Shown: positions 1,810 through 25,128, counted from the first letter of the stretch. The stretch: 28,053 bases of DNA from a virus (IMGVR_UViG_3300042691_027737:1-28053); one strand, 5' to 3'. Notes: generated by a model not told the origin, from the sequence alone. Made by a program: numbers and translations.

Positions 1810-3041
1810 ATATTTCCAGTATATTGTTTTATCCATTCTTTAGATTTAGAATGAACCCAAACTGACCAACTTTTTGGGTTGTTTGTTACTAAAAAATTTC
1901 TACAAATATTAATAAACTTAACACTTAAATAATTTTTTATTTCTTGTTCGGTACAATCTTTTCTATAAATTTCATTTCCATTTTCATCGTGGAAAGTAAT
2001 GGCCCAAAAATCATAATCCTCTTCTTTAAACTCATTAAAATCTAAATTAATACAATGTGTAAAATTTTTGGTAAAACTATTCAACCATTCTTGTTCTGTA
2101 TTAAAATCGGGGTTTGGTGGGTAATGTTTTTGTATCGTATAATCTTGTACTGCCCTTTTTTCAAAAAGTAATCCTGCATATTTTTCGTAATCTCTTAAAG
2201 TTCTTAAATTACCTAACCCATATTTACCATCATGACCTTCTTGGTGTTCTCCGTCCATCCCAAATAATCTTCTATTTAATAAATGTGATTTTTCATTTAA
2301 TTTCCACCACTCTTTATCGTCGTCCCACTGTTTTACTCTACCATTTCTAGTGTATTCGTGCCATAAAACAACGCGGTGAGGGTGAAATAAATCATAACCG
2401 TGTGTAAAAGACCTAACAGTGATTGATATTTCTTCTCCGTGAAAATAAAAGTCAGGATTGTGTTGAACTTCTTTTGCAAAACAACCTAAAGTAAAACAAA
2501 AATGGGCAGAATAAAATCTTGCAGGTACGGGTAAATCAATATCTTGCCAGTTTGGTATTGTTTCGGGAAGAAAAAATACGGCCCCTTCAGGTATAAATTT
2601 ATCAAAAGCCATTTGCCAAGGAACTCTAACTCTACCTTCGGGATCATTATTTGGGTCGTAAGATGAAACATATCCCGTTAATAAAGGTTTTGGAATTCCT
2701 ATATCTTGAAGTTGCTTTATCATACCAATTAATGTCTCGTCCCAATCTTTTTCAAAACGCATATGGGAATCAATTTGTAAGGTATAATCCTCTTCATCAT
2801 AAAGTTGTTGTACTTGATTACGAGCCCAACAAACTCCTTTTGATTCACTATATGGTATGTTTAAAATTTTAAATCTTTTATCATTTTCAAATTCACCAAT
2901 GTTGAAATCGTCTTTTGGGTTGTATTGATTACAAATACCAAATACTAAATTCTCGGGATATTTAGCATTTTCTAAACAAGAATTAATGGTAGGGATAAGT
3001 TCTGGATCCCTATAAGAGGCTATTTGAATGAATATTTTCAT
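1806..3041 (-). CDS. GlcNAc-type glycosyltransferase (PF11397-like)
   Basis: A 411-residue GT-A-type glycosyltransferase resembling the 'Glycosyltransferase (GlcNAc)' family, which includes the Dictyostelium Skp1 hydroxyproline GlcNAc-transferase. Motifs fit in order: N-terminal FIQIASYRDPEL (4-15), SKGVCWARN (67-75), the QIDSHMRF catalytic/metal-binding block with DSH at 91-93, and HGEEISITVR followed by a WHEYTR block (~201-232). No membrane anchor is present, so it should be soluble. It likely transfers a sugar from a nucleotide donor. The acceptor is unknown, but neighbouring proteins carry Pro/Thr/Ser-rich linkers. Its TGA overlaps the start of the next glycosyltransferase gene, so the two are probably co-translated. 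A 41-base gap separates it from the upstream fibre gene. Confidence 0.85.
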   Translation of the reverse strand: MKIFIQIASYRDPELIPTINSCLENAKYPENLVFGICNQYNPKDDFNIGEFENDKRFKILNIPYSESKGVCWARNQVQQLYDEEDYTLQIDSHMRFEKDWDETLIGMIKQLQDIGIPKPLLTGYVSSYDPNNDPEGRVRVPWQMAFDKFIPEGAVFFLPETIPNWQDIDLPVPARFYSAHFCFTLGCFAKEVQHNPDFYFHGEEISITVRSFTHGYDLFHPHRVVLWHEYTRNGRVKQWDDDKEWWKLNEKSHLLNRRLFGMDGEHQEGHDGKYGLGNLRTLRDYEKYAGLLFEKRAVQDYTIQKHYPPNPDFNTEQEWLNSFTKNFTHCINLDFNEFKEEDYDFWAITFHDENGNEIYRKDCTEQEIKNYLSVKFINICRNFLVTNNPKSWSVWVHSKSKEWIKQYTGNI

Positions 3042-3082
3042 AACCTAAAAATAGATTTTTGAAAATATTTTGTAAATATAAA

Positions 3083-5182
3083 TTAAGATTCTAAATTACT
3101 AATTCTTATCTTTAACTCCTCAATAATTTTTTGTTGTTCTTTAATCGCCTCAACTAAAACTGCAGTTAAATTATCTTGGTGGATACCTTTGATTTCATCT
3201 TCAGTGTTATTATTGGTAAAGACTAATTCCGGTATTACTTTTTCAACTTCTTGAGCAATAAACCCAATTCTTTTACCTTCAATACCAATCCAATTATAAG
3301 TAATCCCACTTAATTGTAATATTTTTTCTAAAGAATTTGTAAGTGGTTCTATTTTTTCTTTTAATCTAATATCTGATGTATTTGTTGTTAAAGTACCATC
3401 GGAACTATAGTGAAGTGCCCCAGCAGATGCGGTGGATCCTATAGCCCTAAACCTACCATTACTATCCACATCTATACCTGTTGATGGTTGTTCCGATGAG
3501 ACGTAAAAGGCAGCCCCTATACCCAATTTAGCTCCTGTGGTTATTATTGCTGATGTTGGTGTTGGGGTTGGGGTTCCGCTAAATCTAAATCCTGATCCTA
3601 CACCGCCAGCACCAATCACTAAACTTCTACCTCCAGTAGCCGTTATAACCGTATCACCTGAAATTGTATTAAAATTATATGAACCATTATCGGCCGTAGG
3701 AATTATAAACACACCCTTAGGTACTGGTTCATTATTCACCGCCCTAAATGCAATATCGTCAATAACAAAATCACCTGAATTAACGTGTAATATCGATGAT
3801 GGGTTTGACGTTCCAATACCAACGTTACCATTACTATCAATTCTCATTCTTTCACCAACAATCGTTCCTCCACTCAAAGACCCTGTTGTTCCTGTTGTTG
3901 CAAAAATCAAAGACCCTTCTGATAAAGCATTAATAATACCACCAATGTAACTTTTAACACCAACACCATCAGTATCACTACTATAAAATTCAATTTTTCC
4001 GTTAAACTGTGCACCAGCAACCGTATCCGTGTCGGTAAATCTTAAAGTATTATTTACCGCAGTTGTTGTGTTAAATGCCGCAATATCTAATTTAGTGAGT
4101 GGTGATATAGTTCCAATTCCGGTATTCCCAGATAAAGTGTTTAATAATACATTACCTCTTACGGTTGCTCCTGACGTTACTTCTAAATTTGTTGTTGTTG
4201 TTTTTCCTGAAACATTAACCTCATTCCCTGCAGCAAATAGTAAATTACTTCTGTTTACATTATCAGAACCATTACCAATCATGAATGCACCTTCTGTTGT
4301 ATCTCCTGTTGAATTAAACTGTCCAACAACGCTTTGGAAGTTACCGCTAGCATAGGTTCCTTTACCTTCGGAATGTGAGTATTGCCCAAAAGATGTTGTT
4401 CCCGATCCTTCGGCATGTGATCCAGCACCATATGATAATGTGAATCTACCCTCAGCATGTGAGCCAGTACCTTCTGATGTTGTTAATAAACCTTCAGCAT
4501 GTGAACTTCTACCAATTGCCGTACCACCTGAAAAAACACCACCATCATAATAACCACCCTCAGCATGAGAACCCCTACCTGAAGCCAAAGTGGCGACTCC
4601 TTCGGCATGAGAACCATCACCACTGGCGATTGTAAAGGCTCCTTCGGCATGTGAACCTCTGCCCGATGCGGTACCACCTGAATAAATTGTCGATCCAATA
4701 TTATAACCACCTTCGGCATGTGAACCAACCCCCGACGCAATTGTATACGCACCTTCCGCATGTGAAGCGGTATTTGATGCCCAAGTGTTTGCCCCTTGTG
4801 CCAATGAACCAATCCCCGATGCTCTTGTTTCATAATTTAGTGCGGTACTAGCACTTGTTGTTGCAGATGTTCTAATACCATACGAAAATGCTAACTCTTG
4901 ATTTGTTACTGTTGATCCGGGTGATTTAATAGAATCATATATTGTTATAGGTGAACATCCATGTATGTTTGTTACGTATAAATCAGCAATACAATTTCCT
5001 GAACCTCCACTGAAAGTTGACCCACTAAATAGTCCGGCAAGTTGGCCTAATTCTGCTTTATATGATGAACCAGCAAGATTCTGAGATGGATCACCTGTGT
5101 ATACAATATGGATAAGTGTTGTCGGCGTAATTGCCGAAGAATGAGCTAAGGTTCTGTCTGTAAGTAATTGATATGTTGGCAT
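3083..5182 (-). CDS. Tail fibre with SHAEG (YadA-head-like) repeats and S74 chaperone domain
   Basis: A 699-residue fibre protein. Residues ~127-275 hold nine SHAEG/SHSEG repeats, mostly 14 residues apart with occasional ~9-residue insertions. This is the pattern of the left-handed beta-roll in YadA-type trimeric adhesin heads. Residues ~340-600 contain stalk-like segments with NGNVGIGT-type motifs common in phage fibres. Residues ~601-699 match the intramolecular chaperone of endosialidase (peptidase S74): SDIRLKEKI at 603-611, IGFIAQEVEKVIPELV at 639-654, and a terminal coiled coil at ~675-699. In this family the domain trimerises the fibre and cuts itself off at a Ser beside the SDxRxK motif; Ser603 is the likely site here. 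The gene follows the 95-residue gene after a 21-base A/T-rich gap with a TATTTATA element. Confidence 0.88.
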   Translation of the reverse strand: MPTYQLLTDRTLAHSSAITPTTLIHIVYTGDPSQNLAGSSYKAELGQLAGLFSGSTFSGGSGNCIADLYVTNIHGCSPITIYDSIKSPGSTVTNQELAFSYGIRTSATTSASTALNYETRASGIGSLAQGANTWASNTASHAEGAYTIASGVGSHAEGGYNIGSTIYSGGTASGRGSHAEGAFTIASGDGSHAEGVATLASGRGSHAEGGYYDGGVFSGGTAIGRSSHAEGLLTTSEGTGSHAEGRFTLSYGAGSHAEGSGTTSFGQYSHSEGKGTYASGNFQSVVGQFNSTGDTTEGAFMIGNGSDNVNRSNLLFAAGNEVNVSGKTTTTNLEVTSGATVRGNVLLNTLSGNTGIGTISPLTKLDIAAFNTTTAVNNTLRFTDTDTVAGAQFNGKIEFYSSDTDGVGVKSYIGGIINALSEGSLIFATTGTTGSLSGGTIVGERMRIDSNGNVGIGTSNPSSILHVNSGDFVIDDIAFRAVNNEPVPKGVFIIPTADNGSYNFNTISGDTVITATGGRSLVIGAGGVGSGFRFSGTPTPTPTSAIITTGAKLGIGAAFYVSSEQPSTGIDVDSNGRFRAIGSTASAGALHYSSDGTLTTNTSDIRLKEKIEPLTNSLEKILQLSGITYNWIGIEGKRIGFIAQEVEKVIPELVFTNNNTEDEIKGIHQDNLTAVLVEAIKEQQKIIEELKIRISNLES
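4358..4804 (-). repeat. SHAEG coding repeats
   Basis: An array of ~42-base degenerate repeats coding for nine copies of SHAEG/SHSEG inside the fibre gene. Two of the units carry longer loops. The repeat lies at protein level and drifts at the DNA level. Confidence 0.8.
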
Positions 5183-5802: not shown

Positions 5803-8800
5803 TTAACACTGATAAACATTAACTACTTGACCTGAACCATTAACTTGTGCAACATACCTACTACCAACTATTGGGCAATCATTTGATAAATAACATCTAC
5901 CGAACCCTCCATTTGCCGCTCCAACATTAAAACCAACCACAGGATTTGTTAATGCACTATCATAATATAATATTGTTCCAACTGTTATGGTTGGTGTTGC
6001 CGTATAAATTGATAGTCCGCAACCAGTTGCTGAACAAACAGAAAAATCACTTGAGTAATATGAGAAAAACCCATTATTAAACCATCTAAAATTAACAGTT
6101 GTCGGAGTTGGGGTTGGAGTCGGAGTTGGGCTCGGAGTCGGAGTTGGGCTCGGAGTCGGAGTTGGGCTCGGAGTCGGAGTTGGGCTCGGAGTCGGAGTTG
6201 GTCCAGGCGTAGGACAAGGTCCTAAAATTGATGAATTTATAATAAATGAAGTATTAGTCCCTGACCATTGGGTAGCGGAAATAGGGTAGTGTCCTTGGTA
6301 ATCTATGTATCTAATATAATTAGGATTACCTAAATAACTTTGTGATAATTCCCATCTGTTATTTGTTTGGTTCCACCAAACATAAACTGGTAGTGTATTG
6401 TTACATGTACTATCTCTTAGTTCATAATATGGTCGACCATTAAACTTACCTGAATGACCATAACTACAAGAGTATGGTCCACCGAATCCATCAATTTCAA
6501 CATCAAAACATATGTTTTGTGAAATATCTTCTAAACAACTAATATCATATTCAACTTCTAATTCTAATTTAAATTCAGTTTCCCCTATTGGGTCTATCTG
6601 TCCTGTAGAACAATTTGATTTTATTGTTAGTTTATTATTTAACAAATCAACATTATAACTACCGACTTCAGGTATACTTGAAAGTATTGTTTCTATTGTT
6701 TGTTTCCAAGTGGTATCATTTGTTATTATAAAAGTTTGTGTATATGCACTTCCATTTATAGTTATCACACAGGATAGATTAACCGAGTTTAAGATACATC
6801 CAGTGTATCCTGTTGTTAAATCAATATAACCCTCGTTTATCATTTCATTTATGCCCCTTTTAACAGCATAATTAGTTATAAAATTAGACTCACATAAATC
6901 GTAAGTGGTTTGTCCAGTAACTAACGATGTAGAGCAATTTATTGTAAAATTATGATAATTAGTACATCCATCACTATCAACTACTGTAACGTAGTAACTA
7001 CCACCTGAAAGCCCTGAAACAGTTGATCCTGTTTGGGCCATAGGAACATTAGGTGACCAATTATAAGTAAATGTTGGTTCTCCATCAAAAATTATAACAG
7101 AAGCGGTACCATCATTACCTAAAACACAATTATTAGATAATAAAACACTATTTAAAATGCCTCCGTCAGTTATTAAAAAACTTTTTGTGACTGAACAATT
7201 ACTCTCATCTGTTACTGTTAGTGTGTATTGTCCAGGTGATAAATTATCATAAGGCAATGTTGTATTTTCTATGTTAAAAACTTGTTGACCATTACTAAGT
7301 ACATAATCTAACACACCATTTGCGTTCCAATTAGTATATCCAGTTCCTACGTTTACTATTGCATTCCCATTTGGTGATCCGCAAGTGGCTCCTGTCGTGG
7401 ATATGTTAACACTAAACTTTTCTTGTGACGAAACAACCACAGTATCAACATATGAACAAGTATTGTTTTGACCTAAAATTTGTAAGGTGTAAGTATCGTT
7501 TGGTAAATTAGAAAATGTATAATTTTGATTTGGTGTATTAACGTTTCTTATTTCGTTAGTGGTTTGCCCGGTTAAACCTAATGAGTAACTAGCAGCATAT
7601 GGTGCATTAAATGTAGTTAATATTACTCCTGAATTTTGATTACACTGTGAGTTTGTTACAACGTTTGATACGTTATAAACCCCACCTTGTGGTACTAAAT
7701 ATACAATAGTATCTAAAGGACAAAAATTAGCATCTCTAATTGATACGGTGTATGTACCTGCATTTAAATTATTTACTGTGAATGTATTTGATAATGTATA
7801 TCCATTGAGTCCATTATTTAATTCGTAATAAAAGGGAGCAGTTCCGCCAACAAGTGTTGTTGTAAATGACCCATTATTAACTGAACAAGTAGGGTTAACG
7901 GTTGTTGTAAGACCAACAGTTAATGGTAATGCTTGTCCAATTAAAACTTCTTTTTGTGTTGTACACCCATAAAAGTCTGTGACTTGTACCGAATAAACCC
8001 CCTGAGTTAGTCCTGTTGCTAATTGACTAGTTTGTCCATCAGACCATAAATAAGTATATGGTCCTACACCTGTTGTTCCTGTGACCGCCGCTTTACCTGT
8101 GTTTGTTACACAGTTAGCAGCATTTACAACCCAAAAACCATAGTCAATACCTGTACTAGCACTTATAACCGCATTTTCAGTCTTTGCAGTTGTAAATCCA
8201 TAATCATAAACCAAAACATCATAGATTCCATTATCTAAACCAGAAACTAAGAAAGGTAATGTATTTGCTTCATATAAGTCATGAAATAACCCATCTTTAT
8301 TAACCACAATTTTAAATGGCGAAACCGTTGTATTAGCACTAACAGTAAAAGATCCATTATCTTGTCCGCAATTAGTACCATTAACATTATATAACGATGT
8401 TTCAAAACAATCAGATATAATAACATTAAAATATACCTCATTATTTTGGAATCCTTGGCTATCATTAATTCTAAAAACATAAGTCCCCCCAGTTAATCCT
8501 GTATACGATACTTGGGATGTGAATGTCTTAGCAGATAAACCACCAGGAACTACATTATCTATAGTATAACCAGGACTACCACCATATACATTTATTGTAA
8601 CGGTACCGGCAGAAAATGTACCACAATTTCCATTTGTTGTAAAATTATAACTTAAAGATCCCGTATTACAATCTTCTGTACATGCAGATAAAGGGTCTAA
8701 ATAAACCCCTACCGCAGATCCTGAAAGTGCCTGATCCGCACAAACTGGTTGATATAGAGGTCCGATTCCTGTTTGTATGTTTCCACAACAATCGAAATAA

Positions 8801-8841
8801 CTATAATAAACATCATTAGTATAACCCGAAATACACGCCAT
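5803..8841 (-). CDS. SprB-repeat tail-tip/adhesin protein with PTPTPS linker
   Basis: A 1012-residue modular protein. Residues ~60-640 are a run of about seven Ig/SprB-like domains. The clearest, at ~245-300, has [14 protein letters not shown], then [12 protein letters not shown] and GC; another at ~565-632 has FTYNWSP and [16 protein letters not shown]. These match SprB repeats known from flavobacterial gliding and surface adhesins. Residues ~775-850 form a module shared with the protein encoded at 1-970. A Pro/Thr/Ser linker (876-915) follows, then a ~95-residue Cys-containing C-terminal domain. No secretion signal is present, which fits a virion protein rather than a host adhesin. Its ATG overlaps the preceding gene's TAA by one base (TAATG). 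Host binding is inferred. Confidence 0.83.
6097..6216 (-). repeat. 18-bp tandem repeat encoding a PTPTPS linker
   Basis: Four perfect copies of an 18-base unit (CCAACTCCGACTCCGAGC up to phase, gene orientation) run from 6116 to 6187, with a partial fifth copy at 6188-6201 and degenerate flanks. The array codes for the Pro/Thr/Ser linker at residues 876-915. Because the unit is a multiple of three, copy-number changes would keep the frame. Confidence 0.9.
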
Positions 8842-12771: not shown

Positions 12772-13854
12772 TTATACTGTGTTTATTTTGAAAAATCCAT
12801 ATCCGTATCTTACTAAATCACCCATATTATCAACTTCACCTAGTCTTTGTAATTGTTCATACCCTGAATATTTACCTCTCTCAACATACACATCAGATCT
12901 TATTTCAGGGTCAAAAACAAAATCTAAAAGTAATTCATTTTTAGTTAAACCTGATGCTATTAAATTTGATGGTGTAAAACCAGATGAATTTACAAAGTAT
13001 ATTGTTTTACTATTGTTCAAGTCGAAATATGAAATATTATTAATAGTATATGCGGTATATTCTGAAGTTATTTCATCCACATAACCAATAGATTGTGCAC
13101 CTAAATTCATAATATAACCTACGGTAAATGCTTGTGGCCCCCACCTTCTTAAAGTATTTAACCTAGAATTTGTAAAACCTGAAACAACAAAAGGAACTTG
13201 TGTGTAGTTACTCGAATAATGTGCGTTTACATCATTATTACTGTCACCAGTGAAAATGTAGTTATAATTTATTGGTATTCCTGACCAATTACCTCCTTGT
13301 TGCGTAAAAGTAACCGTACCTAATTGATTATCTACTGTTACACCAGTAAAAGGTAATGTTATTTTTTTAATAATTTCAGTAGTCCCCCAAATATTATTTT
13401 GAGTCATTTTTATTGAATACTCTTGGGGTACTTGTGAATAAGTATGAACTTGTGTATTCTCTTTTATATTCACAGTACTTGTGTTAGACCCATCACCCCA
13501 ATCGATTGAATAATTTGAAAGAGCCAAATAATTGTTTACACCAAAACCGGCAGTATTATAAATTGTTATTTGGTATGGTTGTATTGAATTTCCTGAAATG
13601 TAAAAATTATTGATGGTATCTTGTTGGTCTATAAACCCATCAAATTCGTCGTAAAACCCTAAATCATTAAATGTATTTGTTAATAAAATAGGGATAGTTA
13701 ATCCCGTAAGTAAAGAACTACCATCCACCCCACTTGTTAATACTTGAGTCATTCCTGAATATATCCCAAAGGCATTACCATCATAATTCAAGTCGAATAT
13801 GTCTCTATTCAAAACTTCAGGAGATATAATATAATTAGTTTTTTCTGATTCCAT
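12772..13854 (-). CDS. Structural protein with PKD-like domain
   Basis: A 360-residue protein. Residues ~96-168 look like a PKD domain: YSIDWGDGS at 115-123, HTY at 137-139, then EYSIKMTQNNIWG at 145-157. In PKD folds the WGDGS and HTY strands are hallmark positions. PKD domains usually mediate protein or glycan contacts on surfaces. The flanking regions are beta-rich and unassigned. Its ATG overlaps the TAA of the 277-residue gene by one base (TAATG), which indicates translational coupling. A peripheral baseplate or spike-associated protein is plausible; no enzymatic function is visible. Confidence 0.75.
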   Translation of the reverse strand: MESEKTNYIISPEVLNRDIFDLNYDGNAFGIYSGMTQVLTSGVDGSSLLTGLTIPILLTNTFNDLGFYDEFDGFIDQQDTINNFYISGNSIQPYQITIYNTAGFGVNNYLALSNYSIDWGDGSNTSTVNIKENTQVHTYSQVPQEYSIKMTQNNIWGTTEIIKKITLPFTGVTVDNQLGTVTFTQQGGNWSGIPINYNYIFTGDSNNDVNAHYSSNYTQVPFVVSGFTNSRLNTLRRWGPQAFTVGYIMNLGAQSIGYVDEITSEYTAYTINNISYFDLNNSKTIYFVNSSGFTPSNLIASGLTKNELLLDFVFDPEIRSDVYVERGKYSGYEQLQRLGEVDNMGDLVRYGYGFFKINTV

Positions 13855-14687
13855 TATGGGTTTACATATTCATACCATTTTATCGGACTTGTTGTTCCTA
13901 TTCTTTGTAAATTACCAACACCATTATCATACTCATAAACCTCATATTGATTTGTTTGATAATTTAATTGGTATTTGTAATAAAAGTATTCACTCTTATC
14001 TATATTAAATTTATTCAACCCATTAAAGGTTGATTGTGGTGTGTTAATCAATCTAATAAATTGTCCTTTTTTTGCGTTAAAAAACTTAGCACTAACATAA
14101 AATTCAGTTATATCAACATAAGACCTATCTTTTAACCAATAAATGAAAAAACCTTCTTTATCTGCCCCTGAATAATCTAATAAAAATTTTGGTTTTTTAA
14201 CCTCAACCTGTGTTTGATTTAATGGTGGCCCTATTGTTCCTGGTTCTTTTAGTCCTTGTTGTGTTGGTATAATGACGCTAAGATATATTGTTTGACTTTC
14301 GGTAATATTAGAATCATAAAAATCTAACTTAAAAAAACTTCCTTTAAATGAGTTTGCAAAATAATAAATTTCTGTATCAGTAAAAGATGTATTTTCATAA
14401 TCTGAAACCCAATTAGTAATAGTTGCTGCGGATGGTGTAATAAGATAGTCAAAGAAAAAAAACTCATAATTTATATCAGTTCTCATTACATTATTTACAT
14501 AATATTCTTTGTGAGCAAATTTTGTAATTTCAAAATCATTAATTGGATTGATAATTTCTTCAATAACATCATTTTCCCATTCATTAATAAGGTCTTCTCT
14601 ACCTTCCATATCAAATTTTATCTCGACCGGAATGTTAATGTATTGCTCATTAACTGTTTGAATTTTTCTAAAATAGTTATTATTCAC
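13854..14687 (-). CDS. Structural protein of unknown family, GTG start
   Basis: A 277-residue protein I do not recognise, rich in aromatic and acidic residues. It has an aromatic patch YEFFFFDYL near residues 74-82 and no membrane segment or catalytic motif. The start is a GTG at 14687 inside the end of the 594-residue gene: GTGAATAA places the TAA 3 bases after the start codon, an 8-base overlap. The first downstream in-frame ATG (MEGRED, ~27 residues in) would lose this coupling. Its own TAA overlaps the next ATG. The coupled position between baseplate-type genes supports a virion role. Confidence 0.7.
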   Translation of the reverse strand: MNNNYFRKIQTVNEQYINIPVEIKFDMEGREDLINEWENDVIEEIINPINDFEITKFAHKEYYVNNVMRTDINYEFFFFDYLITPSAATITNWVSDYENTSFTDTEIYYFANSFKGSFFKLDFYDSNITESQTIYLSVIIPTQQGLKEPGTIGPPLNQTQVEVKKPKFLLDYSGADKEGFFIYWLKDRSYVDITEFYVSAKFFNAKKGQFIRLINTPQSTFNGLNKFNIDKSEYFYYKYQLNYQTNQYEVYEYDNGVGNLQRIGTTSPIKWYEYVNP

Positions 14688-16464
14688 AGTTATCGTTTGT
14701 TGGTTGATTTATTATTGTTATGTCTCCTACCATACCGTTTGAACTTCTAGCTATAGGGTATTGTAAAAATATAATCTCTTTAAATGGGTAATGTGCACCA
14801 TTAATAAAGGGATGATTAATTCCGATACCATCACTATCAATATACCCATAAGTATATAAATCTCTCCATATAAATTGTTGGGTTTCATTTGAGTAGTACG
14901 AATAAAATGGGGCATCACTTACTTGTTCCAAACCAGTACTTTCTATATAATCACTAAAGACTCTTATAGGAACTGAGTAGTGTGGTTTATAAATATAACC
15001 TTCAGGTATTTCGGGATCGTTAAATAAATTACCAAAATTTAAACTAATACCACCACCAAAACCACCACCAATAGTTACTACGTTTTGGTTTAACTGACTA
15101 TTAGAAAAAAGATTCGTATTAAAACTATACTTATGATGAATATCTGATAAAACATATTCTTTTTGTTCTATGTTGTTATATTCACAAAAATCACCTTTTA
15201 CTATATCACCAATGTTTGGGGTTTGGTTATAAAAAAATCCTTGTCCACCTATTTGGTACGTATTAAATGGAATGTTATCTTTATTTACCGAGGAATCGTG
15301 TTTCCACCATTGATTATTCACGTCTTTTGTAAAGTTAAACTTCCAACCAATATCGATAGCACTTGAACTGTTTAACGCTGGTTTATTAAACCAACCACCA
15401 TAACCTTTATTTATTATTGTTATAAAAAATTCAGTTATTGGTTTACCATTATTATCTATTAAATTTTCAACACTAAGATCTTTATTAATTGTAAATCCAT
15501 AAGATTGTCGTCCGTCTTTAACTGAAACTCTTTGTACATTGTTTGGTGTTAATGCTGAATACTCTAATTTTTTTTCTACAGGAAATGGATTATTCTCAAA
15601 AGCCATTTTTGTAAGAAATGTTTCGTCTTGTGATGACAGTATTTTATGTAATCTAATATAGTATCTAGATTCGCTTTCACCACTATTCGCCAAAGTTATA
15701 ATTCTTTTAAAGTTACCATATGTTCCCGTTATTATGTCATTTGGGTCGAATTTTAAATCGTATATTGAAAAAACATTTTTTTCTGTTCCGTATGTCCCAT
15801 CACCAACGTCATATACTTGGAAAACGTTTTTATTATTTATCGTAATATTAAGTTTTACGTATTGTCCAGGTGTTAGGTTATGACTAGTCGCACAATAAAA
15901 ATAAACCAAATCTTTACCATTAAATGTTCCCGTATCTATTACAAATGGGATACCCTCATGTACTTGAAAGTTAGTATTTGTTACATTAAATTTTTCACTT
16001 GTGTACGACATGGTTTGAGCGGTTGTACTACTAAAGGCATATGATGTATATATAGACCAATTATAAGTTGTTGAGCTTTTAGAGACAAAGGGCACATGGT
16101 TTTCAATCATACTTTCTCTAATAAATTCAAATTCTTGATATGGTGGGTATCCTTGCCAAACACCGGTAGAAATAGATTCTTGTGGGTTTATATAATATAA
16201 ACTGTTTTTGAAAGGACTGTAGTTAGTTCTACCTGAAACACTATTATTAAATATGTTTACGATTTTACCAGCAATTCTAAAAGTTGTTGATTTCTGTCTT
16301 TCTTTTTCAAATATATCTTGTAAATCAACTAAAGTCGTCCGATCCCCCTGTATAAAATTTCTACTATCACCCTTCAATGGTAATTGTATTTGTACAGGTT
16401 GGTTTGAAGCACCGGCATATCTTTTATTACCTAAAACAATTCTTATATCATCCTGTTTTCTCAT
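14680..16464 (-). CDS. Structural protein of unknown family in the position of a gp8-like wedge gene
   Basis: A 594-residue beta-rich protein. The N-terminal ~60 residues (IRIVLGNKRYAG, later FIQGDRTTLVDLQDIFEKER) look like a folded linker. The rest is rich in Tyr, Asn and Thr strands with a Gly-rich loop (GGGFGGG) near residue 467. It starts 2 bases after the TAA of the 2094-residue gene (TAATAATG), so translation is probably coupled. In T4 the order gp6, gp7, gp8 is conserved, and here the gene is second after the gp6-like gene, but no sequence similarity to gp8 is apparent to me. The assignment is positional only. Confidence 0.7.
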   Translation of the reverse strand: MRKQDDIRIVLGNKRYAGASNQPVQIQLPLKGDSRNFIQGDRTTLVDLQDIFEKERQKSTTFRIAGKIVNIFNNSVSGRTNYSPFKNSLYYINPQESISTGVWQGYPPYQEFEFIRESMIENHVPFVSKSSTTYNWSIYTSYAFSSTTAQTMSYTSEKFNVTNTNFQVHEGIPFVIDTGTFNGKDLVYFYCATSHNLTPGQYVKLNITINNKNVFQVYDVGDGTYGTEKNVFSIYDLKFDPNDIITGTYGNFKRIITLANSGESESRYYIRLHKILSSQDETFLTKMAFENNPFPVEKKLEYSALTPNNVQRVSVKDGRQSYGFTINKDLSVENLIDNNGKPITEFFITIINKGYGGWFNKPALNSSSAIDIGWKFNFTKDVNNQWWKHDSSVNKDNIPFNTYQIGGQGFFYNQTPNIGDIVKGDFCEYNNIEQKEYVLSDIHHKYSFNTNLFSNSQLNQNVVTIGGGFGGGISLNFGNLFNDPEIPEGYIYKPHYSVPIRVFSDYIESTGLEQVSDAPFYSYYSNETQQFIWRDLYTYGYIDSDGIGINHPFINGAHYPFKEIIFLQYPIARSSNGMVGDITIINQPTNDNCE

Positions 16465-16466
16465 TA

Positions 16467-19400
16467 TTACCCTATAATGTATTTAGTTATATATCTATTA
16501 ATGGCCGTTTTACCTTTACCTAATCCAAAATAAAAATGATATGGGGCTCCGACAATAAAGTTACTTGATTGATTGGGTGGGAACTCTAAAATATTTTGAT
16601 TAAAATTTCCGTTACTATCATAATTGATTATATATCCAGTTGCTCCGTTGAAGGGTCCTGTACCATTTTGTGGTTGAAAATAATCAGTAGTATCGAGTTT
16701 CATTTTTTGGTACGGTGTCTGATAGAAACCTCCGTTTTCTAAATCAGTATCCCAATCATTTAGTTCGCTACCAAACATATTAGATGTTGTATCATATTTC
16801 CATTTATACATAGGCACAACTTGTGTTTTTGGGTAACCGTTATTTTGCAATACAGTTCCGTATGTTTGTATTCCTGGAGTTAAAAGAATCCTATTTTGTG
16901 TATTCGATGAAAAATATAAACCAATGGTTGGTCCTGAGACTCCTTCAGAATTAACAGCACTAAAAAGAAAAACATCGTCATCATTATAGTTATCATCATT
17001 AAATGGTACAATTCCGTACTCTGAATTTATGCTAAATAATTGTGTTGCATCACCATCTAACCTATCTTCAGACCTACTAAATAACGCATTTAATTGTCTA
17101 TTCCCCGCAGTTAATAAATTACCTAAATCGCTGTTTAAAAGTCTAGATAAAATAAAAAATAATAAAACATCACTTGTATCATTAAATGAAGTACTTTGTA
17201 AGGTCTCAACTAAATAACCGTCTAATTGGGGGTTAAAACATATCTCTTTTGCAAATTCGTCTCTTGGGCCCAAATCCATTAATGTTGTTGGGTAATAAAT
17301 GTTTCTTTTATTTAAACCATCATAATTAGCGTTTATCCATAACCCAAGACCAAAAAATTCTCTGTATCTTGGTTTTTGACCAATAAATTGGTTTGTTTGG
17401 TATTCGTATGGTGTAGACCTATATAAAAAAGTATTTTTAGTATCATCGAAATAAATCGGTCCTTGATATTGCCTGATTGGGTTTACTAACCCGTCAACGG
17501 AACCACAGTATGAATATTTTTTTAAATTTCCCTGAGAATCAAAAATATTTTTCTTTTTAAAACCAAAAGAATATAAAGTACCGTTAACCCAATTATTTTG
17601 GAATACGTGGCCGATAACCCCTCTACACGCAGCAAAAACCAAAGTAAATCTTGCTCTCCATTCGGTAAAGTTTGTTATGTCATTATTTATTGATGTTGCC
17701 GTAGCATAAGGTGCTTGTACAAAATAATAACAACCACCAATAACTCTTTGTGTTGTTAAACTACTATCCTGATTTGCCGGACATGGTTTAACAACACCAA
17801 AATCAGCACCAGTACCACTATAACAAGATAACAACGTTAATCCCTCACAACTCAAACTATTAATAATAGCATCTGAAACAGCGCTCTGGGTGTCCCCTGA
17901 AAAATCTTGCGTATTAGCATTACTTATATCTTGATTTATTGTAACATTAAGTTCTTCAACATCACCAGTTGAGGTAATACTTGCGATATAGAAAGTATCG
18001 TTTAAAAATAAAGGTAATGATGTGTTACCAACAACTGTGGGGTTAGATGATACAGGTAAACGATCGCTCCGTAAAACTAATCTTTGTCTGTTCAACATTT
18101 GTACATCTTGGGTATTTTCTAAATGGTACGATGGTGCATATACTCTTGCAAAATTATTAGGATTAAGAATATCAATCATTTCTCCAGGTATTATGTTAGA
18201 ACCTATAAATGAAATACCTTCAATCCTTCCTTGGTCATATGTTACATTGTTAACATATAAAGGGTCTAACGGGTCGATAATAGTGTCAGGATCCCCCATA
18301 GTCCAACTAAACCCTAAAGTAGAAGAACCGGCAGTTCCAAGATAACTTACAGGACAATAAAAACCATTATTTGAAAAACTACCAATATTAAATTGGTCGT
18401 TAGGAAAGGCAATATGATTTACTCTAGACTTATCTGTAGATGTATAATATTTTACTGAATTATTTGTAAATGCCGACCACTTTGCTGATGGAATATTGAA
18501 TGAATTAAAAGTACTATGATAGAGTCTTGGATCAGTATTAAATTCAATATCATGACTTACGGGTGTTCGATGATCTTGTCTCCATGTTGCTTGATTTACA
18601 CCAGGAATACTCCAAGTATCCGTTAAATTAGTTGAGTTTTTTTGTATTGGTATATTTAAATAATATTCACCTTTAACTTTGTATGTTCCGTCATTAGCAT
18701 TAAATAATCTTGAAATATCATATTCTATGGTTTGTTTTGTCGTATATGGATCGACTCCTCTTGTTAGAATAATTAATTCTGATTTATTAAAATCGTTGAA
18801 GACTTGTTCAACATAAACATTATACCCTCTAGCAACGGGCCTCCATGTCGTTAGTGGTAAGGGATTTACTACACTAAAATTAAACGCCGTGTAAATTGTC
18901 CCGTCTGAATTTAAAAGTCTCATATTCGACACCCCTAAATTTACAGTACTAAAACTTCCAACTATTAAAATTCTATAATCAGGTGTTACTTTGATGTCGT
19001 AAACAACTGCCGGACCTGATGGTGATATAGTGCCTGCGTCAAATGTACCATCTAAAGTACCGTCACCAAATAGTCTCACAATGCCAGACCTATTTATTCC
19101 ATTATACGTGGTAAAATAACCACCAACAAGTATAGAACCATCTACATTTACGTATATTGATTTAATAGAAATTGAACCGGATCCTCCTAAATTACCGACA
19201 GTGAATGAGGTATCTAATGAACCGTCATCATTTAGTCTCAAAACTCCGTTATATGATGTTCCTCCAATAGTCATAGTACCAGTCAAACCTATTAAAATTT
19301 TACCATTCCCATCTAAAGATATTGCACTAACATACGGTGAATATGTATTATCAAATGGCGTTTGAAATGTGTTATCTAAAGTTCCGTCACTATTTAATCT

Positions 19401-22400
19401 AACCACTTTTCGATTACCAAAAGTTTCTGCGTATTTTGTCAGATAAATTTTTTGGTAGTGGGTGCTGGATGAATCTTGATCAATTTCTAATTTTTTTATT
19501 TCATTTGTCGCAAAACTAGGTGGTTGAAAAGTCGAGTCAATGGTCCCTGTGCTATCTAATCTTGCAATATTATGTCTATTAAATGGTAAAACCACATTCT
19601 TATATTTATAAAAGTTTCCACAAACAATAATACTATTATCCCATGATTGTTTTTTTATATCTTCAACTTTAGTAGTATTAGATATAGCATCAAATCCAAC
19701 ACCAACATTAAAACCTACATCAATACTACCAGTAGGTGTTAGTTTAACTAAACCTACTTTAGTTGTTGCTGGGTTGTTATTATTTCTAAAACTACTAAAA
19801 CTACCACCAAAATAGACTGACCCATTACTATCTGTTAACACTTTTAATACGTCACCACCTAAAAGCCCATTATTAAGTGAATTAGTTATAAAATTATTTT
19901 GCCAAGCACCGTTATTGTAATCTATTTTTGTTATTTTTTGATTATTTTTTGTTCCGTATTGAGTAAACTTACCACCTAAAAAAATATTAGAATTAATTAC
20001 ATCGTAATCTACTGAATATGTTATATTATTTAAGTTTTCCCCAAATTTACTACTACTACCCCAACCTTTACCCCATCTAAATTTCATACTTCCAGTATAA
20101 ACATATTGCGATATAAAAGACTCCCATGGTTCACCTACTAGTAAATTTTTAAAGTTAGATAATGTACCACCAGTTATGACTTGATAATATTCGGTACCCG
20201 CAGGAAAATTGTAGGATTGTGTCGAAGCGGTTAGTTTTAAAAATAAATTGGCAGTTAATTCTTGATCAACATTATAATCATTTTTTGCATATTTTACTTG
20301 TTTTTGAACTAGCGCGGTGGTATTAAAAGTAGTTGTGCCTGTGACTGATTTTTTATTAAACTGATTGATTGTTGCCCCAGTTAAATTAGGGTCGTTTATT
20401 TGGGTTAAATCGTTAAAGGTTAAAAGACTACCACTACCACCAATATTTTGTAATGTCCCACTATCACAAACTAAAATAAATGGTTGATCAGTAAACGTAT
20501 CAGACACTTGTTCAATATTGTTAAAATCCTTATTTTTTACTGTCGTTTTTATTACTGATAAATTTTCAAAATATCTTTCTCTTGAGTTTAACATATTTAA
20601 AATTTGTGCCCATGAAACGGTAAATGATTGTGCACCAATTCTAGAGTCTTGCGACATCCATGTTGTGATCGGAACTCTTTGTAATTTTTCTCTACCTTCC
20701 GTTTGTGGACCTGAAAAACCAGCAAACCCTTGGTTTATTGCATAGTAAAATGTGTCTTCAGTTACATCACACCCTTCAGGAAATGAACTACAGTATGATT
20801 GGAATACTGACCATTCTCCACTTTCTTTCCATAACCAGCTTTCAATACTATTACAATCTACTAAAACACTCTGATTTATTCTATCTAAAGTCAATTCTCT
20901 ATCCGCATCAACTATCGCTGTTTGAACATTTTCACAATTACATGCTTCACAGTCTGGATATGATTGCATTGGTAAAAATAATCTAGGAAATGTTCTTGGT
21001 TGGACTTCAGGTATTACTCTGTCTTCGCAATTATCTTGGCTCCATCCTAACCAACCTTTTATTCTATTAATAGCCCTACAAACACCTAATATTATCCTAT
21101 TGGCAAATCTTATAAACCCATTAACTATTTCAATTATTTTTAGATATAAAAAAATAATAATGTGATAAATTACAATTATTATTACAAAAACAACAGCAAA
21201 TAAAATCATTAATATTTGAAATAAGAAAAATATTAAATCAAAGTTTCTAACCCCATCATTAACCGGTAACCTATTTGTTGTTGTTGTACAAGTCCTATCT
21301 GTTATCTCTTTTATTCCTAAATGTCTGGCCCTATTATAACCCCATTTCCATCTATCAATAAAACTACTTACAGTATATACCCTATTAAAATTAAACTCAA
21401 AAAATCTATCATCACAATTTATTGCTTCTGTAACCATTTGTTGACCTAAAGTAGTAAAACCACTCGTTACAGGGTCTAATTGACCATAATCTTGCCAATC
21501 GGTACTAAAAGCGTATGAATTTCTTTGTAAGTCTAAATCGGTAGGTCCGTTTTCTGCAGCACCGTTTTGATTTCTCCACCCATATTCTTTAATGTTTGGT
21601 ACTAAATAATCCGCTCTTATAACTTGTGAATTGACTCCACCCTCATTTTGATACTGTATTTTAAATCTGTATTTTCCTTTTGTTGGTACCCCAATTTTAG
21701 GGTCATTAGATATGACTTGTTCTCCAAATTCATTCGTTGATACGTAATCTAAGTTCATAGGTACCTCTATTAACCATGTGCCTTCACCATCTATTACATT
21801 ACCACCTTCAGGTAATTTATATTCCTCTAAAATTGGTAACCCTAAACTATCCGTATAAATTGTTTGTCTAATTGCTAAAATTTTACCAGGAGCACTTACT
21901 AAATCACATAAATTTCCTGAATTAAATTTAGGTTTACAGTTTGTTCCCATAGCATCTTCTTCGGAAGTTGAGAACATAGATCCCATGAATACCGCCTGTG
22001 GTTCTATTGTAATTCCTTGTTCTCTTAAATCAAAATCTACTCTTGTTATACCAACATTACAGATATCTGTTTCACCCCAAAAAGAACTAATCTCAATATC
22101 TTTACTCAAATTAACTATTTGTGGTAAAGATTCTATATTTTCTGATGACCTAAACTGAGAACCAGCAAATTGTGATTCTACACCCATCCCCATTCTTACT
22201 AAGTCTGATGGTCTAAGAGAAAAACAACCAATATTTGATACGTCCATATCCATGACTATGACTTGCATCCCTAAAGGAACACCAACAATCATAAAATCAC
22301 CACTTTCATTAGTTTTAACTGTGTATTTGTAATATTTCTCGTATATCTCTAATACTTCTTGTCTTTCTAATACATCTTGAATATCGGGAAAAGTCCCTGT

Positions 22401-22751
22401 AGGTGTGTGTCCACCATACTCAGACTTATATGGTAATAAATTATATCTATAACCATCATCATTTTTTTGATCAACTCTTTTATATGGGTATAGTGTAGAA
22501 ATTACAGGATCCAATTCGTCTTGCGCTGTTAATGGTACAAAAATTGAAATGTTAACGTTTGGTACGCCATACCCTCCGTTAGCAATTACCCTACCGGCAA
22601 CTACACCGTAGTCGGCACAAAAACGAGTATAAACGTCAGATTGTTTAAGTTTTAAAGACAAGACTTCGATCATATCAAAATCTTGTTCAATATTAAGTCT
22701 TACTTCTCTATCTTGGTTTAAGTTTGTTCTAAATCTATAGCTTTTAGACAT
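16467..22751 (-). CDS. Giant baseplate-region protein with hydrophobic segment and delta-60 beta-propeller
   Basis: A 2094-residue protein, the largest here. Residues ~41-175 resemble a carboxypeptidase-regulatory-like beta-sandwich (YGVVAGRVIANGG, then NVNISIFVP and SGDFMIVGVPLG). Residues ~503-547 are strongly hydrophobic, followed by an amphipathic basic stretch to ~570 and a CEACNC cluster at 601-606. Residues ~907-1300 carry seven delta-60-type repeats with L-x-x-DGT-x-D-x-x-F cores at 1004, 1065, 1119, 1173, 1227 and 1280 and a degenerate one at 943. The 53-61 residue spacing fits a seven-bladed propeller. The C-terminal ~800 residues are unassigned. Coming straight after the gp6-like gene, it occupies the position of T4 gp7. 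No signal peptide is visible. Host or membrane contact is inferred. Confidence 0.8.
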   Translation of the reverse strand: MSKSYRFRTNLNQDREVRLNIEQDFDMIEVLSLKLKQSDVYTRFCADYGVVAGRVIANGGYGVPNVNISIFVPLTAQDELDPVISTLYPYKRVDQKNDDGYRYNLLPYKSEYGGHTPTGTFPDIQDVLERQEVLEIYEKYYKYTVKTNESGDFMIVGVPLGMQVIVMDMDVSNIGCFSLRPSDLVRMGMGVESQFAGSQFRSSENIESLPQIVNLSKDIEISSFWGETDICNVGITRVDFDLREQGITIEPQAVFMGSMFSTSEEDAMGTNCKPKFNSGNLCDLVSAPGKILAIRQTIYTDSLGLPILEEYKLPEGGNVIDGEGTWLIEVPMNLDYVSTNEFGEQVISNDPKIGVPTKGKYRFKIQYQNEGGVNSQVIRADYLVPNIKEYGWRNQNGAAENGPTDLDLQRNSYAFSTDWQDYGQLDPVTSGFTTLGQQMVTEAINCDDRFFEFNFNRVYTVSSFIDRWKWGYNRARHLGIKEITDRTCTTTTNRLPVNDGVRNFDLIFFLFQILMILFAVVFVIIIVIYHIIIFLYLKIIEIVNGFIRFANRIILGVCRAINRIKGWLGWSQDNCEDRVIPEVQPRTFPRLFLPMQSYPDCEACNCENVQTAIVDADRELTLDRINQSVLVDCNSIESWLWKESGEWSVFQSYCSSFPEGCDVTEDTFYYAINQGFAGFSGPQTEGREKLQRVPITTWMSQDSRIGAQSFTVSWAQILNMLNSRERYFENLSVIKTTVKNKDFNNIEQVSDTFTDQPFILVCDSGTLQNIGGSGSLLTFNDLTQINDPNLTGATINQFNKKSVTGTTTFNTTALVQKQVKYAKNDYNVDQELTANLFLKLTASTQSYNFPAGTEYYQVITGGTLSNFKNLLVGEPWESFISQYVYTGSMKFRWGKGWGSSSKFGENLNNITYSVDYDVINSNIFLGGKFTQYGTKNNQKITKIDYNNGAWQNNFITNSLNNGLLGGDVLKVLTDSNGSVYFGGSFSSFRNNNNPATTKVGLVKLTPTGSIDVGFNVGVGFDAISNTTKVEDIKKQSWDNSIIVCGNFYKYKNVVLPFNRHNIARLDSTGTIDSTFQPPSFATNEIKKLEIDQDSSSTHYQKIYLTKYAETFGNRKVVRLNSDGTLDNTFQTPFDNTYSPYVSAISLDGNGKILIGLTGTMTIGGTSYNGVLRLNDDGSLDTSFTVGNLGGSGSISIKSIYVNVDGSILVGGYFTTYNGINRSGIVRLFGDGTLDGTFDAGTISPSGPAVVYDIKVTPDYRILIVGSFSTVNLGVSNMRLLNSDGTIYTAFNFSVVNPLPLTTWRPVARGYNVYVEQVFNDFNKSELIILTRGVDPYTTKQTIEYDISRLFNANDGTYKVKGEYYLNIPIQKNSTNLTDTWSIPGVNQATWRQDHRTPVSHDIEFNTDPRLYHSTFNSFNIPSAKWSAFTNNSVKYYTSTDKSRVNHIAFPNDQFNIGSFSNNGFYCPVSYLGTAGSSTLGFSWTMGDPDTIIDPLDPLYVNNVTYDQGRIEGISFIGSNIIPGEMIDILNPNNFARVYAPSYHLENTQDVQMLNRQRLVLRSDRLPVSSNPTVVGNTSLPLFLNDTFYIASITSTGDVEELNVTINQDISNANTQDFSGDTQSAVSDAIINSLSCEGLTLLSCYSGTGADFGVVKPCPANQDSSLTTQRVIGGCYYFVQAPYATATSINNDITNFTEWRARFTLVFAACRGVIGHVFQNNWVNGTLYSFGFKKKNIFDSQGNLKKYSYCGSVDGLVNPIRQYQGPIYFDDTKNTFLYRSTPYEYQTNQFIGQKPRYREFFGLGLWINANYDGLNKRNIYYPTTLMDLGPRDEFAKEICFNPQLDGYLVETLQSTSFNDTSDVLLFFILSRLLNSDLGNLLTAGNRQLNALFSRSEDRLDGDATQLFSINSEYGIVPFNDDNYNDDDVFLFSAVNSEGVSGPTIGLYFSSNTQNRILLTPGIQTYGTVLQNNGYPKTQVVPMYKWKYDTTSNMFGSELNDWDTDLENGGFYQTPYQKMKLDTTDYFQPQNGTGPFNGATGYIINYDSNGNFNQNILEFPPNQSSNFIVGAPYHFYFGLGKGKTAINRYITKYIIG
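18852..20033 (-). repeat. Delta-60 (DUF5122-like) beta-propeller coding repeats
   Basis: Seven protein-level repeats of 53-61 residues within the giant protein. Each couples a G-[GN]-x-F strand to an RL-x-x-DG-[TS]-[LI]-D core. At the DNA level the copies have diverged. The seventh (most N-terminal) lacks the canonical DGT. Confidence 0.85.
21111..21245 (-). other. Segment coding for a hydrophobic stretch (possible membrane hairpin)
   Basis: Encodes residues ~503-547 of the giant protein, dominated by Ile, Leu, Phe and Val with few charges before a Lys near 538. It is long enough for one long or two short membrane helices. Basic residues follow (548-566). Confidence 0.6.
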
Positions 22752-22823: not shown

Positions 22824-24662
22824 TTATCCGAAGTCTACTGTAGAAAGATTCTTTACTCTTACTTTAATGTCTTTATTTGAAAACCTTACTTGATAAATTT
22901 GATCGGGTTCAGCATATATAGTCTCATCTATTAATTCTATTTGTTTTGTAGCAGGATCTATATATCTTTGGGAGGTTTCGGAAGAAGAATACTGTCCCCC
23001 AATTTTATTATACACTCGTATCTCTGTAATTGTATTAACTCCTCCAATATCTTGTATATTTCTTTTTATATCGGCAACATTAACATTTTGACCTAACTCC
23101 CTATTTTGAGGTGCCATATAATCACTTACACTATTTATTATTTGTGTTATAACTTCTGCTTGACTTCCAGGGTTATCAATAACAACAAAAACTTCAAATT
23201 CTAAATCTATAACCTTTGCAACCTCTATAGATATATAATCATTAATCATTCTATATTTAGAAAGGTATGTTGCTAAGTTTGTTTTTAAATTGTTAGAGAC
23301 AGTTTGAGTTAAGACCCCTGAACTATCATAAGAAAGAATTTTAATTGAAATTTTATTATCGGTTTCGCTTATAGAAACCTTTGCGGGTGCACCAAAATTC
23401 CCCGGCATAGTATCAATTAAAGATTTGTAATCATTAATTGTTACCGCTCTTTTTTGTGCCGCAAAGTTAAATGAAACCATGTTTCTAACTTCTTCTAGTG
23501 TTGGTTGATTGGCTCCCCCAATCGCTGCGGTAACATTGGTAATTGCTAAAGATTGAACTACATTTATATTTTTTTGTTCTGATGGCCCATTAACTACAAA
23601 ATCAACTGTACCTATTTGTGTAATTGCACCAACACCTATATTTGATGCTAATCCACCCCCAACTCGATATTGAACAAATATTGTTGTGTTTGGTTGAACG
23701 GTTTTACCTAAACCAATATTATTTTGGTAATTAGCTAAATTTAATGGTACCCCTGTTCTTGTAAAACTTCTTAATTGATCGTCAGGTGTGGTAGTAGCCG
23801 CACCAAATTGTATCTTTAAGAAACCTTCTGGTGTGTATTCAGTTATAAATCGATTATCCGTTTTTAAATATTTACCAACTTTTACCCCCGCAGAATCAAT
23901 AGGTTTAGTTGGGTCTTCAATAAACACAGTGTCTTCAACCAACGAATCAACTTCATACCATCTATCGTTTGAACCATTAAAATCACTGTAAGATGGTGTA
24001 TTAGTATAGGTTGTTCCGTCTTTTTGTATAATTGATGATACCCCCAAAACATTTTTTTCAGGTAAAAAGAAGTTAAAGAATGGTGCAACGTCTGATGAGT
24101 TTATAACTCTTTTAAATACTTTTGTGGTACCATTTACAACAACTTCTCTTTTAGTAATAATATAATTTATTAGATTGTTATCTTGATCAAAGACGGGAAC
24201 TTTAGTTCTATTAATAAACCCTTCTCTATTGAACTGACTTGAGAAGTCAATATCATATATAGTTTCAAATGTTGTTCCACCACCATTAAATTGGGCTCCC
24301 GCTCTTAAAATACCTAGATATCGAGTATCTTCATTAGCACCAAACGCATCTACAGTGATAGAAATATCAACAACGGCAACTGACGGCCTATACCCAGGTA
24401 TTTTTAAACCATAAGTCCTTGCAATATTAAATACCGAAGAACGTTGTTGTGCGTATTGTAAAACAGTTTCTTGAACACTTCTATCAATATGATAATTTAA
24501 ATTATCCGCAACCGCAGCATTTAAATCCATTAATACGGAAAATACCGATGCATCGTTAAAGTTCTGAATAAGTTCAGGGTAATATTGTTGTGTAAAATTT
24601 ATCAGGTCTCTCCTTATTCCTTCAAAATCTCTTTCTGTGTATGATATTTTTTTATTTGCCAT
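22824..24662 (-). CDS. gp6-like baseplate wedge protein (Baseplate J family)
   Basis: A 612-residue protein close in length to T4 gp6 (about 660). The N-terminus has ISYTERDFEGIRRDLINF (6-23), then DASVFSVLMDLNAAVADNLNYHID (~37-60), the usual start of gp6/J-type wedge proteins. Residues ~400-430 (AAQKRAVTINDYKSL, then PGNFGAPAKVSI) match the conserved [KR]RAVT-x-x-DY...PG motif of the family. In T4 two gp6 copies per wedge form the ring that links neighbouring wedges around the hub. It begins 4 bases after the stop of the gp25-like gene, and a near-match of the TATTTATA element (AATTTATA) lies just before the start, within that gp25-like gene's end. Confidence 0.88.
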   Translation of the reverse strand: MANKKISYTERDFEGIRRDLINFTQQYYPELIQNFNDASVFSVLMDLNAAVADNLNYHIDRSVQETVLQYAQQRSSVFNIARTYGLKIPGYRPSVAVVDISITVDAFGANEDTRYLGILRAGAQFNGGGTTFETIYDIDFSSQFNREGFINRTKVPVFDQDNNLINYIITKREVVVNGTTKVFKRVINSSDVAPFFNFFLPEKNVLGVSSIIQKDGTTYTNTPSYSDFNGSNDRWYEVDSLVEDTVFIEDPTKPIDSAGVKVGKYLKTDNRFITEYTPEGFLKIQFGAATTTPDDQLRSFTRTGVPLNLANYQNNIGLGKTVQPNTTIFVQYRVGGGLASNIGVGAITQIGTVDFVVNGPSEQKNINVVQSLAITNVTAAIGGANQPTLEEVRNMVSFNFAAQKRAVTINDYKSLIDTMPGNFGAPAKVSISETDNKISIKILSYDSSGVLTQTVSNNLKTNLATYLSKYRMINDYISIEVAKVIDLEFEVFVVIDNPGSQAEVITQIINSVSDYMAPQNRELGQNVNVADIKRNIQDIGGVNTITEIRVYNKIGGQYSSSETSQRYIDPATKQIELIDETIYAEPDQIYQVRFSNKDIKVRVKNLSTVDFG

Positions 24663-24666
24663 AGTT

Positions 24667-25128
24667 TTATAAATTTATAATTACAAACTCTCTTGATCCG
24701 AAAGCACTACTATCATCAGTATATTCTATTTTCACTTTTGCGGTATATTCTTCTGTGTTAGCCCCTGGCACTCGATATACAGGAATATCAAATTGTTCTG
24801 ATGGTAACTCACCTAATGATATTTCTGTCTCAATATAAGGTTCAATGGTGATATTTTCTATTGTTAAATTTGGTATATACTTAGCCACTGATTCTTCAAT
24901 TTCTGACCTTATAGTATCAAATGTTTGTCCATCTAAAGGTTCAAAGATATATTCATAAAGTCTCGTTCCAAAATCAGGAAGATAATATCTATAACCTTTT
25001 CTAGTTAAAAGAAGATGGATTAAGTTTGCTCTTATTTCATCACCAGTTTCTTCTGTTAAATTTAAGTATGTTCCTTTCTGACTTTGTCTAAAAGGAAAAT
25101 TAATACCATAAGTAATACCATCTGCCAT
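24667..25128 (-). CDS. gp25-like baseplate wedge protein (GPW/gp25 family)
   Basis: A 153-residue protein of typical gp25 family length. The diagnostic block is LLLTRKGYRYYLPDFGTRLY at residues ~39-58, followed by EYIFEPLDGQTF; family members share a pattern of this kind (G-x-R...P-x-[FY]-G-x-x-L...F-x-P). In T4 gp25 sits at the core of the wedge, near the gp6 ring, and is part of the machinery conserved across contractile injection systems. It is the first gene after the terminator at 25166-25197, so it probably opens the structural transcription unit. The start follows two A/T-rich octamers. Confidence 0.9.
   Translation of the reverse strand: MADGITYGINFPFRQSQKGTYLNLTEETGDEIRANLIHLLLTRKGYRYYLPDFGTRLYEYIFEPLDGQTFDTIRSEIEESVAKYIPNLTIENITIEPYIETEISLGELPSEQFDIPVYRVPGANTEEYTAKVKIEYTDDSSAFGSREFVIINL

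Follow-up and report, generated by a model that had tools for sequence, protein, structure and literature searches.

A predicted delta-60 beta-propeller as an optional, exchangeable cassette in a baseplate-locus protein of probable large T4-type phages

Main finding

A viral DNA stretch of 28,053 nucleotides (IMGVR_UViG_3300042691_027737:1-28053, hereafter the window) encodes a giant protein into whose middle a delta-60 beta-propeller, predicted to have seven blades, is built. As judged from alignments with close relatives, this domain occupies one insertion site between conserved mounts and is present in some of them and absent from others; its alleles are deeply divergent and break off sharply at the mounts, and the insertion site is predicted to be a flexible loop in a relative without the propeller. 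The explanation that we favour, and consider reasonably probable, is that the propeller could serve as a swappable module for binding surfaces or receptors, mounted on a loop of a conserved protein from the baseplate locus of a large T4-type phage, probably one of Bacteroidota. Gripping of the host surface and trading between viruses are suggested because relatives either do without the propeller or carry a very different version of it. The carrier protein would then be part of the virion baseplate, the propeller would face outward with its variable loop face free and bind a glycan or protein on the host surface, and exchange of the cassette by recombination may shift host specificity while leaving the baseplate undisturbed.

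Carrier protein and delta-60 repeats

The carrier (P0001) is an ORF of 2094 residues, the length given for it in an earlier note on this DNA, and lies at 16467-22751 on the minus strand as the first gene after gp6, with a start that is conserved across the family. It belongs to the delta-60/DUF5122 family by two profiles, both scoring above their curated cut-offs: PF17164 (DUF5122 beta-propeller, Pfam) matched over six stretches with E 1.8e-31 and 108.5 bits (cut-off 27 bits), and TIGR02608 (delta_60_rpt, NCBIfam) with E 4.7e-24 and a score of 84 (cut-off 76.5). A six-frame search of the window with PF17164 gave six family matches, each within this ORF, and the remaining repeat of the seven is a degenerate blade 1, visible in the predicted structure and not among the six stretches. 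The D strands of the seven A-B-C-D blades are spaced 60, 61, 54, 54, 54 and 53 residues apart, in agreement with the seven repeats of 53-61 residues proposed by the earlier note, whose span of 18852-20033 (residues 907-1300) fits the cassette listed in Table 1. Comparison of the whole 2094-residue protein with the sequences of solved structures (PDB) gave zero matches.

Table 1. Coordinates of the carrier protein's features and of neighbouring genes in the window (residue numbers refer to the carrier).
Feature	Position	Strand	Basis
gp25-like baseplate wedge protein	24667..25128	-	PF04965, E 2.7e-10
gp6-like baseplate wedge protein (Baseplate_J)	22824..24662	-	phrog_219, E 1.2e-21
Transthyretin/carboxypeptidase-regulatory-like N-terminal domain (tentative), residues ~45-250	22002..22619	-	L014 model
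Very hydrophobic, transmembrane-like helix, residues 504-540	21132..21242	-	hydropathy maximum 3.36
YPDCEACNC motif, residues 598-606	20934..20960	-	pattern in 88/101 relatives
N-side mount FRWGKGWG, residues 891-898	20058..20081	-	kept with or without propeller in the window's subclade
Propeller cassette, residues ~899-1298	18858..20057	-	PF17164, AlphaFold2; absent in L014, L016 and others
Blade 1, residues 911-954	19890..20021	-	AlphaFold2 strands, blade table
Blade 2, residues 968-1014	19710..19850	-	PF17164 family match, AlphaFold2, blade table
Blade 3, residues 1029-1075	19527..19667	-	PF17164 family match, AlphaFold2, blade table
Blade 4, residues 1085-1129	19365..19499	-	PF17164 family match, AlphaFold2, blade table
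Blade 5, residues 1141-1183	19203..19331	-	PF17164 family match, AlphaFold2, blade table
Blade 6, residues 1195-1237	19041..19169	-	top-scoring PF17164 stretch, AlphaFold2, blade table
Blade 7, residues 1249-1290	18882..19007	-	PF17164 family match, AlphaFold2, blade table
C-side mount TTWRPVARGY, residues 1301-1310	18822..18851	-	
594-aa protein, invariably the gene that follows the propeller protein	14680..16464	-	66/66 eligible loci
277-aa and 360-aa proteins, syntenic	12772..14687	-	62/62 and 50/50 eligible loci

Predicted fold and variable face

Residues 855-1345 were modelled with AlphaFold2 from an alignment of 13 sequences, giving a mean pLDDT of 74 (core mostly 80-94, flanks below 50) and seven strand triplets with short D strands. 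Foldseek and VIA-align matched the model at Z 27-29 to the CylK propeller (top match) and to WD40 and designed propellers with seven blades, and since the matches to closed seven-bladed structures run end to end over model residues 47-429, the ring of seven four-stranded blades is predicted to be complete and closed. The earlier note had expected a complete seven-bladed propeller and had suggested structure prediction and an HMM search against PF17164 as checks; both came out in its favour, the latter well above the cut-off.

The top fold match is an enzyme propeller, and some phage propellers, such as endosialidase, are enzymes, so a depolymerase-like domain that degrades glycans from its place at the baseplate has to be considered. 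The positions conserved among the propeller alleles are almost all structural, namely glycine, aromatic or aspartate, which argues against a common catalytic site, and no common polar constellation was evident among the alleles; we regard an enzymatic propeller as very improbable. A binding propeller, the reading that we prefer, could be accommodated by the geometry of the loops. In propeller topology, the B-C and D-A loops exit one face and the A-B and C-D turns the other, and across 14 alleles the former loops hold 261 of the 300 residues inserted relative to the window and the latter turns hold 18. Long loops generally vary more than turns, and this distribution is consistent with a binding face without proving one.

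Locus, virus type and putative host

Gp25 and gp6 immediately precede the carrier gene, and the gp6- and gp25-like wedge neighbours that the earlier note had recognised were confirmed by profile matches (Table 1). In every eligible locus the neighbours had the expected strand and lay on the expected side (91/91 for gp25 and 104/104 for gp6; the other three as in Table 1), and the order gp25-gp6-X-594-277-360 did not vary across about 100 contigs, the median gaps by tblastn being 79 and -1 bp. The carrier gene, next to gp6 and gp25 within a T4-type tail locus, holds the position of a T4 gp7-type gene. A T4-type portal (E about 1e-75) was present in four of the five longest records (166-292 kb) that were searched, and a sheath match just below the curated cut-off (E 5e-8 to 2e-6) in each of the seven records searched for one, so that the virus is most likely a large T4-type, contractile-tailed myovirus.

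Leaders without Shine-Dalgarno motifs, a GC content of 32% and the SprB repeats encoded in the window would fit, weakly, a host among the Bacteroidota. Tblastn searches of isolate phages, in which the N-terminus and a distant member of the family served as queries, returned no carrier relatives of note, and none was confirmed in bacterial genomes, so that neither a prophage nor a host link was obtained. The window also encodes a 1012-aa protein (5803-8841, minus strand), probably another adhesin, that combines SprB repeats with a TPSPTPTP stalk and was seen in few of the relatives examined for it, and a 699-aa fibre-like protein (3083-5182, minus strand) with repeated SHAEG motifs and a C-terminal S74 intramolecular chaperone.

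Remainder of the carrier protein

Outside the propeller, the carrier had no matches in PHROG, Pfam or PDB sequences. Its N-terminus is tentatively assigned as a transthyretin/carboxypeptidase-regulatory-like domain from a model of residues 1-1200 of the propeller-less relative L014, in which this domain, of moderate pLDDT, aligned to 5aq0, 2nsm and 6hif at Z ~10 (VIA-align) and filled the list of fold matches; residues 620-1200 of the carrier were modelled at a pLDDT of about 90 and gave no known fold among the matches listed. The YPDCEACNC motif could possibly be a metal or disulphide site. In BFVD, the sole match to the scaffold model below E 0.001 was A0A8S5LA66 (Myoviridae sp. ctPuP5), a metagenomic, uncharacterised protein that is regarded as a relative of the carrier because it is 42% identical over 356 columns. 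In profile comparisons the carrier showed no homology to proteins of the baseplate region in Flavobacterium phage immuto or Microcystis phage Mel-JY01, both of which share gp6.

The hydrophobic helix occurs in all sampled relatives, is one long helix in the L014 model, and is longer in relatives without the propeller, e.g., residues 494-590 in L016. Such a helix is odd in a wedge protein, and it may reflect membrane insertion during infection or a role in the host membrane. If the latter applied, the helix would anchor the protein in the membrane of the infected cell with the propeller outward or periplasmic, for example masking the receptor against re-infection, and the high hydrophobicity of residues 504-540, the longer helix of propeller-less relatives and the lack of homology to known wedge proteins could all be read in this direction. 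We nevertheless consider a host-side membrane protein quite unlikely, given that the gene sits in the invariant order of the tail locus described above, that an N-terminal signal sequence is not apparent, and that exclusion proteins do not usually reach a size of 1600-2100 residues.

Presence and absence of the cassette

An initial search of viral contigs with the 2094-aa protein gave 29 loci. Alignments of the N-terminus were used in four scans, which confirmed 501, 349, 541 and 532 overlapping stretches; the 80 best of each scan were kept, and 110 proteins remained once duplicates had been discarded. The full-length relatives in this set fall into two size classes, 1589-1806 aa without the propeller and 2088-2106 aa with it. 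Three shorter proteins that end in a stop (1256, 1388 and 1394 aa) look truncated; two of these, L046 and L129 (1388 and 1394 aa), stop soon after the propeller, whereas near-identical relatives reach about 2090-2100, and their early stops would be due to a frameshift or an assembly error.

FRWGKGWG and the W..VARGY motif flank the insertion site. In L014, a member of the window's own subclade, a short linker joins the two mount sides with no propeller between them, and the insertion site forms a low-confidence loop (~890-920) inside a confidently predicted region of its model. The L014 form is known from one contig; L014 and L041 are a sister pair, 98% identical over the first ~500 residues, and L014 is the one without the propeller. 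Across a tree built from residues 1-495 (90 rows, of which 21 carry the domain), the propeller must have switched between presence and absence at least five times, and each switch is forced by supported branches. PF17164 matches in the records that carry them are confined to a single ORF of ~2100 aa, as judged by open-frame length and position, and PF17164 was not found in propeller-less records of 292, 214 and 166 kb.

On these alignments, the propeller is an optional, exchangeable cassette, and it cannot be the sole receptor binder of the family since many relatives do without it. The earlier note had offered a receptor-binding or a scaffold device; the scaffold role is disfavoured because most relatives have no propeller and yet retain the remainder of the carrier as well as the order of the genes.

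Divergence and exchange of alleles

Compared with its nearest relative, L013, the window has a propeller of 41% identity, whereas all other compared genes and segments are 80-98% identical (87-98% for the compared genes, from ribonucleotide reductase to the 1012-aa adhesin, and 80-96% for the other segments of the carrier). Domain exchange and diversity above that of the neighbouring genes are expected of a receptor-binding protein, and the suggested receptor-binding role would fit this pattern and that of presence and absence. Nucleotide identity is 0.83 over residues 880-899 but 0.25 over residues 900-919, and it is restored at ~1295-1300. Since synonymous divergence also doubles in the propeller (1.50 vs about 0.75), although saturation blurs dS, the comparison points to another allele having been swapped in rather than merely to fast amino-acid change.

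The most informative comparison, that of L044 with two relatives, indicates the same. L044 and L053, with an N-terminal dS of 0.77, have propellers that are 88% identical with a dN/dS of 0.08, whereas the propellers of the closer pair L044 and L048 (dS 0.45) are 45% identical with a dS of 1.79, so that replacement of whole alleles is indicated rather than fast evolution. The conflict between the scaffold and propeller trees of these three was assessed by AU tests (p-AU 0.0028 for the propeller and 0.07 for the scaffold). Flanking segments agree with the propeller, at weak support; the conflict is suggestive and not decisive. As window and L013 were not rejected as sisters in the propeller tree (p-AU 0.28), and the conflict of the other three is suggestive, very fast divergence would be a formal, if less probable, alternative. 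Searches of IMG/VR for a donor of the window allele returned two distant delta-60 proteins and no close relative, and those for a donor of the L013 allele returned its own contig alone. A diversity-generating retroelement target was considered and rejected: no reverse transcriptase (PF00078) was found in eight records, some of them incomplete, and the changes are silent as well as replacement.

These divergence patterns also bear on whether the propeller could be a structural or decoration module that pads or stabilises the baseplate with no specific binding, its alleles differing through weak constraint. Propellers are used structurally in phage tails, as in papers on the T7 and SU10 tails, and the absence of the domain in many relatives shows it to be dispensable in the family at large. 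Weak constraint would sit poorly with the strong, not relaxed, purifying selection on the allele common to L044 and L053, with the sharp end of divergence at the cassette edges, and with the tightly held total length of the proteins that carry the propeller, and we take decoration to be unlikely.

Implications

If the receptor-binding reading is correct, T4-type phages would have another route to a changed host range, in which a compact, self-closing domain is swapped inside a baseplate-locus protein, and such a domain could be gained or lost with its carrier undisturbed. A broader picture, somewhat unlikely as a whole, is that of an uncultured, widespread, large T4-type lineage that builds its baseplate around a membrane-inserting giant protein, in one branch of which a loop may have become a socket for plug-in propellers of ~400 residues, so that host specificity would be swapped in this way and not by changes in tail fibres. 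The carrier represents a large, uncharacterised protein family that has no isolate. The receptor-binding idea is directly testable on the natural relatives, some of which have the propeller and others not, and on divergent alleles that occur in nearly identical backgrounds.

Comparison with known systems

The earlier note had called a propeller in a wedge-region protein unusual, which holds in part. Propellers in phage baseplate adhesins are already known from the phi11 RBP and PhiKZ gp131C (PMC4901313), and delta-60 repeats are also known from phages; new here is the internal, optional and allele-swapping placement in a conserved protein adjoining gp6. PhiKZ gp131C is a baseplate-periphery protein with a seven-bladed propeller (PDB 4GBF; PMC4901313), and is similar in that a myophage baseplate protein carries such a propeller, for which a receptor-binding role has been proposed and is unproven in PhiKZ. 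Compared by description, its propeller is a C-terminal domain, whereas the one described here is an internal, optional delta-60 insert in another protein, with exchanged alleles. The RBP of Staphylococcus phages phi11 and 80alpha (PMC4901313, PMC7048315) likewise places a propeller on a baseplate adhesin for which binding of a surface glycan is proposed, but is set apart by description through its five blades and its trimeric stem-platform-tower architecture.

The delta-60/DUF5122 family has the same repeat sequence and predicted fold in mostly bacterial surface or secreted proteins, in contrast to the phage tail-locus protein reported here. Stenotrophomonas phage RAS14, a 320-kb isolate, encodes two adjacent large proteins (WAX21589 and WAX21590; L036:4259-9944) with DUF5122 and weak BNR-like matches. 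Among viral contigs, L225 carries a delta-60 propeller at 2743-4911, and in L226 (2728-5196) the propeller forms the N-terminus of a Thr/Pro-rich stalk protein, the gene of which lies between a large ORF and a tape-measure-like ORF, just before the latter. The RAS14 proteins, BFVD A0A6J5M436 and those of the IMG/VR contigs L225 and L226 are thus likewise phage-encoded delta-60 propellers, but they are separate or stalk-fused proteins rather than inserts in a conserved baseplate-locus protein.
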